A stretch of 64,000 nucleotides of DNA, from assembly GCF_900114655.1 (NCBI RefSeq), contig NZ_FOTT01000005.1, forward strand, positions 40,677 to 104,676, written 5' to 3'. This document shows, piece by piece, positions 60,580 to 61,176 of this stretch. Position 1 is the first letter of the stretch; every line of letters begins with the position of its first letter. A program made the position numbers and the translations under genes. Origin of the DNA: Candidatus Frackibacter sp. WG13. Its GTDB lineage: Bacteria > Bacillota > Halanaerobiia > Halobacteroidales > Acetohalobiaceae. Under the pieces are notes generated by a model. It was not told where the DNA came from, searched no databases, and worked only from the letters and a program-made list of their open reading frames with translations.

Positions 60580-61176
60580 TTATTTATCACCACCAACATA
60601 TTTTCGATAAGCAACAACCGCTTCCATAAAATCTTTAAAGTTTTCTAAATGCATTTTGTTTTCTAACTCCATGTTCTTTGCAAGATAATCTAAGATATCC
60701 ATAAACTCTTTTAGAGTACTATTATTTATATTTCTACCAGCAGTATAAGCAAATTGTGGTCTTAACATCTTAATACTTTTGCAATCCTCTTCCTCTGTAC
60801 TCATAATTCTAGAATAAATTTTTCTAATCATTGAAGTAGTTACTTTTCCAGCTTCTTTATCTTTTAATCTCATTGCGTATTTTTTTACATTATCACAGAA
60901 TTCATCATAATCTACTTCATCATTTTTCAAATTCAAAACATTTCTTTTAAAATATTCAACTAATTCATCTTCTATTTTCTCAACCTGAATAGCTTTATCT
61001 TTATCCTCATTGGGCTGTTTTTTTATTTTGAATTCTACATTATTTCCTTTTTCGAGTTCATCTGCATTTTGAGGTTTTACTACATTACTAAAATGTAAAA
61101 AAAAGTCCTCACCATTTTTTCCTCTAATAAATCCATATCCTTTCTGTTTTTTCAACTCTGTAATCCTTCCTTTCAA
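60580..61176 (-). CDS. csm2: Cold-shock domain-Csm2 fusion (type III-A small subunit)
   Basis: 198 residues in two parts. Residues 1-70 form a CspA-like cold-shock domain: KGRITELKKQKGYGFI with RNP1 (KGYGFI), then DFFLHFSNV as RNP2, and an acidic-turn strand ending QVEKI. Residues about 72-198 are Csm2: VTTSMIRKIYSRIM, LRPQFAYTAGR and the terminal FKDFMEAVVAYRKYVGGDK. Csm2 alone is usually 110-150 residues. TTG 61176 is set by AAGGAGGAATAGAAA, and the fold is continuous with no stop, so it is one protein. The extra domain may bind single-stranded RNA beside the target channel. Confidence 0.9.
   Translation of the reverse strand: MKGRITELKKQKGYGFIRGKNGEDFFLHFSNVVKPQNADELEKGNNVEFKIKKQPNEDKDKAIQVEKIEDELVEYFKRNVLNLKNDEVDYDEFCDNVKKYAMRLKDKEAGKVTTSMIRKIYSRIMSTEEEDCKSIKMLRPQFAYTAGRNINNSTLKEFMDILDYLAKNMELENKMHLENFKDFMEAVVAYRKYVGGDK

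Follow-up and report, generated by a model that had tools for sequence, protein, structure and literature searches.

The 64,000-nucleotide stretch of Candidatus Frackibacter sp. WG13 DNA analysed here (the window) carries on its reverse strand, at 60580..61176, a gene that we call csd-csm2, encoding a 198-residue protein in which a cold-shock domain (CSD) is fused to Csm2, the small subunit of the type III-A CRISPR effector. This fusion is real, recurrent and apparently undescribed; the recruitment of a CSD to a type III effector is in itself already seen in Cmr6. A first-pass annotation had the frame, strand and coordinates of the gene right, as re-reading confirmed, and its claim that the CSD is joined in one frame to a full Csm2 is borne out by matches above the cut-offs of both Pfam and NCBIfam: residues 1-67 match CSD PF00313 (51 bits, cut-off 27; E 1.3e-13), residues 91-196 match Csm2_III-A PF03750 (59.6 bits, cut-off 24.8; E 6.3e-16), and the Csm2 model TIGR01870 scores 55.9 bits (cut-off 30.6). 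The CSD that the annotation had put at 70 residues is closer to 68 (residues 1-68, 60973..61176), a five-stranded OB fold in the predicted structure, but both of the RNP motifs it named are there, an RNP1-like KGYGFI (residues 12-17, 61126..61143) and an RNP2-like DFFLHF (residues 24-29, 61090..61107). In the AlphaFold2 model (pLDDT 94, pTM 0.85) the CSD passes almost straight, with hardly any loop, into a helix at residues 71-82 (60931..60966), which together with a turn makes up residues 71-90 ahead of the Csm2 domain proper (residues 91-196, 60589..60906), and the junction is predicted from this pTM to be rigid.

The start codon of csd-csm2 is a non-canonical TTG, which might suggest that the CSD and Csm2 are separate proteins, or that their joining is an assembly error. 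We give this next to no credence. A strong ribosome-binding site, AGGAGG (61185..61190), lies 8 nt ahead of the TTG, within the last codons of cas10, while no ribosome-binding site can be recognised in the 20 nt preceding any of the in-frame starts nearest the domain boundary (TTG81, TTG83 and ATG102), so that a separate CSD protein made from an internal start, the outcome that the annotation had named as fatal to its own reading, is unsupported. The same fusion is found in 51 of 74 protein-search matches, including the named strain Anaeromonas gelatinilytica D2Q-14 (L008), and is therefore neither chance nor an error of the source assembly (48 contigs, 99.99% complete, 0.03% contaminated).

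The gene order is cas10, csd-csm2, csm3, csm4, csm5, all on the reverse strand, followed by two genes for CARF-HEPN effectors. With cas10/csm1 (61180..63555; TIGR02578, E 1.4e-179), csm3 (59797..60549; TIGR02582, E 4.3e-60), csm4 (58721..59794; TIGR01903, E 1.3e-54) and csm5 (57417..58721; TIGR01899, E 8.4e-29), the locus encodes Cas10 and Csm2 to Csm5, a full type III-A effector, and csd-csm2 holds the place of csm2 between cas10/csm1 and csm3. The two effectors are a TIGR02221 (TM1812-like) protein (56002..57381; TIGR02221, E 5.4e-65; PADLOC CARF2--CARF_HEPN, E 1.1e-129) and a TIGR02710 Csm6/Csx1-type protein (54523..55953; TIGR02710, E 4.4e-52; Pfam Csm6 HEPN, E 8.2e-25). The HD nuclease motif of Cas10 is common in type III systems but not universal, and in WG13 LLRTIGEFY stands where LLHDIGKF would be expected, the GGDD motif being intact. 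Because the HD motif is also missing in the relatives L008, L018 and L010 (LLCDLGK in L010), it was probably lost more than once within the CSD-Csm2 group; in L009 the region reads LIHDIGR, which the search pattern missed. We considered whether the CSD compensates for a lost HD domain and rejected the idea, the motif being intact in L007, L011, L012, L014, L015, L016 and L063, all of which have a CSD or a degenerate CSD.

The Csm2 part keeps the residues that are reported to touch target RNA. In an alignment of 67 rows (A2: the window protein and 66 of the 74 matches, mostly 42-55% identical to it; the window's own protein P0001 and P0050, P0056, P0057, P0060, P0061, P0062 and P0070, which are truncated, CSD-less or divergent, were left out), Arg118 (60823..60825) and Tyr144 are invariant and Arg148 is kept in at least 90%. 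By helix order these would correspond to the alpha-2 Arg and alpha-3 Tyr/Arg that contact target RNA, and Arg118 would be the Arg that target-RNA cleavage is reported to require (equivalent to R49 of S. epidermidis; R48 of L. lactis and R41 of S. thermophilus were mutated). Passages of PMC10289348 and PMC8964682 describe alpha-2 and alpha-3 of Csm2 as touching target RNA, with one alpha-2 Arg required for cleavage, Csm2 as held only loosely in the complex when target is absent, and the whole complex as purified via an N-terminal His-tag on Csm2. Since such a tag is tolerated and the contacts run through alpha-2 and alpha-3, an N-terminal domain could ride along without blocking assembly. Ordinary Csm2 proteins (S. 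thermophilus 6ifk/6ifn, S. epidermidis 7uzz, L. lactis 6xn3) share the helical fold, the alpha-2 Arg and the alpha-3 Tyr/Arg but have no CSD, measuring about 117-140 residues among the chains listed. Thermococcus onnurineus Csm2 (the 6mur, 6iqw, 6o7h series), with chains of 187-196 residues matched from about residue 50 onwards, is among the best Csm2 fold matches, but its sequence match to the WG13 protein is confined to the Csm2 part.

Recurrence and history of the fusion

The annotation had proposed a search of Csm2 proteins for N-terminal CSDs, and the 51 of 74 matches that carry both precomputed Pfam domains (44-99% identity, WG13's own cluster included) answer it. A Csm2 match was found in 46 of 398 genomes drawn from the phylum, and in 5 of 59 at the class level. 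The locus was fetched for 44 of the 46 (G049 and G277, with weak or broken matches, were left out), and a local profile detected a CSD-like N-terminus in five of these (G000, G317, G375, G046 and G027). All CSD-bearing Csm2 in the fetched loci belong to a group scoring 157-195 bits on a Csm2 profile from alignment A1 (the window protein and 22 of the 74 matches, picked for spread), whereas no Csm2 outside the group exceeds 64 bits; the 51 two-domain proteins reach 131.6 bits or more without exception. Since the profile was built from group members, this gap is a sign of closeness and no test of a clade. Scanning species genomes yielded 15 named loci, Anaeromonas gelatinilytica D2Q-14 among them. 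Wider genome searches in the classes around G375, G317 and G129 (1 of 29, 1 of 20 and 2 of 13 genomes) yielded no group member beyond those known, and a scan of viral contigs, with 76 pattern matches, yielded no relative of CSD-Csm2. The versions in bins labelled Woesearchaeota and Bacteroidales (P0044 and L010) resemble those of Halanaerobium and Bacillota, and are perhaps mis-binned contigs or cases of transfer.

A 25-row tree of Cas10 supports the CSD-Csm2 group at 100/99, with an unresolved base, and places the window together with the CSD-less L067 (96/92). If 11 rows are labelled as having a CSD (the degenerate L018 not among them), five changes of CSD state are needed, of which well-supported branches force three. 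We would interpret this tree as a single gain and several losses, which is not a proven count. If the one early gain had since become neutral, then the CSD would be a fading accessory, missing as it is in L067, L061, L066 and L017 and degenerate in L014, L015 (L068 in the Cas10 tree), L016 and L018, and less conserved than Csm2 (2.1 vs 3.2 bits). We think this very improbable, however, because 64 of the 67 aligned rows, window included, have a filled CSD region despite mostly 42-55% identity to the window protein, and because a CSD has been fused to Cmr6 as well.

A recent uptake of the CSD from a host cold-shock protein is unsupported, as the five host proteins form a clade of their own (99/100) in a CSD tree of 30 rows, comprising these five, 19 Csm2 rows drawn from the 64 that have a CSD region (A2 minus P0065, P0066 and P0074) and six Cmr6 CSDs. 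The remainder of that tree is unresolved and does not settle whether the CSDs of Csm2 and Cmr6 share an origin.

Cold-shock domains on Cmr6

A search of solved structures led to chain 9arw_H, named CSD domain-containing protein Cmr6, which like 9z7q, 9z7v and 9z7x carries an N-terminal CSD in one chain with a type III effector subunit and has relatives in the same phylum as WG13. Cmr6 is found above cut-off in 54 of the 398 phylum genomes (112 at the more permissive E 1e-3, where other RAMP proteins are admitted too), and six of 30 fetched Cmr6 loci have a CSD match by local profile. The Pfam scan covered these six, four of which pass the CSD cut-off (L095, L100, L102 and L108, the first two from one genus), while L087 and L105 have no Pfam CSD match at E 0.01; L113 is, alongside these last two, a weaker case. 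The L095 protein matches 9arw_H end to end (E 1.2e-67). No CSD was found on Cmr5 in 30 Cmr5 loci, where the CSD matches fall in long neighbouring frames that are cmr6. The best 50 Foldseek and 50 VIA rows for the WG13 CSD-Csm2 model do not include 9arw, which is no evidence against likeness.

Two different type III subunits thus carry a fused CSD, and the parallel suggests a similar pressure on type III-B. The partners differ, Cmr6 being a RAMP subunit and Csm2 a repeated small subunit; Cmr6 sits near the 3' end of the crRNA in one copy per complex. The annotation knew of no described Csm2 with a CSD, and in the open-licence full-text literature we found no description of a CSD on Csm2 or Cmr6, which does not show its absence from print, and nothing relevant under the code 9ARW; the fusion is nonetheless less isolated than the annotation implied, given CSD-Cmr6 in the same phylum and in solved structures. 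Type IV restriction proteins bear CSD-like OB folds according to the CoCoNuT paper (PMC11090510), whose main text does not name Csm2; in PMC12657230, cold shock is a culture step.

Possible roles of the cold-shock domain

The aromatic platform of a nucleic-acid-binding CSD is present in the WG13 protein, with Tyr14, Phe16, Phe26 and His28 in the RNP1 and RNP2 motifs. Free cold-shock proteins of the CspA/CspB/CspC type have the same OB fold, RNP1 and RNP2, but stand alone. Five that were identified in the WG13 genome by similarity to CSD-Csm2 retain KWF, KGYGFI and FVH[FY], while the WG13 CSD has no Trp at the position of CspB Trp8.

Target capture seems to us the likeliest role, with a structural brace as its main rival. 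If the CSD sits as an additional, fixed OB fold on the filament that the small subunits build in the Csm complex, then two or more copies would be aligned along the filament, as Csm2 is in solved complexes, and a face turned towards the RNA could grip unpaired stretches of the target transcript. The benefit would be capture, the transcript being kept in place for pairing with the crRNA, and in relatives without the RNP aromatics the same fold would serve only as a structural or protein-contact module. That the CSD binds unpaired target and helps to hold it in this way has, we judge, about an even chance of being correct.

Several observations weigh against this. Four members of the group (L017, L061, L066 and L067) do without a CSD altogether. 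Of the 64 rows that have a CSD region (the window protein is one of them), 46 keep three aromatics, 22 the canonical set and seven at most one of the three, and a relative without RNP motifs is still predicted to hold the OB fold. By weight, less than half of the rows with a Pfam CSD keep His28, and there is no conservation of the residue that aligns with CspB Trp8. Positions on the CSD face, which we take to be those of B. subtilis CspB numbering, carry 1.86 bits vs 1.59 at other non-core positions (gap-rich columns 34-37 and 58 left out), a difference that is not significant (p 0.097). The extra single-stranded RNA (ssRNA)-binding fold that the annotation had assigned to every Csm2 copy is accordingly plausible for the window protein, where the platform is kept, but not general, and the unwinding of target RNA that it had also offered is unsupported.

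As a structural brace, the OB fold would lend stability to Csm2 itself or to the contacts it makes with a neighbouring Csm2, Csm5 or Cas10, and any RNA binding would be secondary. We hold this possible but doubtful. Across the 51 rows with a Pfam CSD, Phe accounts for 92% by weight at position 16, and position 26 holds nothing but Phe, Tyr or His, which goes beyond what a brace seems to require, and the CSD-less relatives have an otherwise normal csm operon. In six proteins (P0028, P0036, P0037, P0052, P0067 and P0073) RNP2 is replaced by a different motif (VH or IH, x, G, x-DSF), and since the replacement is conserved within the subgroup, it may reflect a change of ligand more than a decaying domain.

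Cold-shock domains bind single-stranded DNA (ssDNA) besides ssRNA, as in the Lin28b CSD with heptathymidine (4a76), so the ligand might instead be the displaced ssDNA of the transcription bubble, or else csm mRNA in an autoregulatory loop, crRNA precursors or a phage product. It also speaks for another ligand that the WG13 protein has its best CSD match in NCBIfam with a defence protein, the retron Se72 effector NF038236; the best in PADLOC is CSD_V, and both are small CSDs in defence systems. At 37.2 bits (E 2.1e-9) against a cut-off of 82, however, the WG13 protein is not a member of NF038236. Nothing singles out any of these ligands, and the lack of an HD motif in WG13 Cas10 makes ssDNA cutting by Cas10 unlikely as the benefit of the CSD here; another ligand is in our view improbable.

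A bolder form of the capture model would have CSDs as an RNA-grasping module that type III CRISPR has taken up repeatedly, for Csm2 and for Cmr6 in separate events, with the Csm2 form multiplied along the filament as a string of RNA chaperones that capture and open structured transcripts before crRNA pairing. We regard this as unlikely, though worth stating. CSD-Csm2 bears on the question of how type III complexes locate transcripts that are structured, translated or short-lived and keep hold of them, and a Csm2 with a likely ssRNA-binding domain, beside close relatives without the domain or with what seems to be its fold alone, offers a ready comparison for whether an extra RNA grip alters target capture, cleavage or cyclic-oligoadenylate signalling. 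CSD-Csm2 could also serve Csm-based RNA-targeting tools.

Surroundings of the csm operon

In all nine loci with a CSD-type N-terminus and a visible next gene (the window, L007, L008, L009, L012, L013, L014, L015 and L016; uncorrected for kinship), the gene after csm5 is a homologue of the WG13 TIGR02221 CARF-HEPN gene, split over two frames in L009, and in none of the four CSD-less loci (L017, L061, L066 and L067) does a gene of this type follow csm5. L018, which has a degenerate CSD and was set apart from this count, has a different arrangement. In L009 a free-standing cold-shock-protein frame lies about 1.2 kb past the CARF gene (approximately 8660-8920, reverse strand).

The entire WG13 csm operon is flanked by 101-nt direct repeats, 97% identical, at 54410-54510 and 63746-63846. 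These are the only two copies found in the genome, and each starts with TTCAATCCTTGTTCTA, which is bases 3-18 of the neighbouring CRISPR repeat; they may mark insertion or exchange of the csm module. Past cas10, beyond the end of the window (L076, contig C21), lie a CRISPR array with the repeat GTTTCAATCCTTGTTCTAATGGAATGTTGATCATAAC and a type I cas set with Cas1-, Cas3-, Cas4-, Cas5-, Cas6-, Cas7- and Cas8-like proteins, named from reading frames and not from profiles. Since this array and cas set lie just there, the type III-A system and its type I neighbour may share crRNAs.
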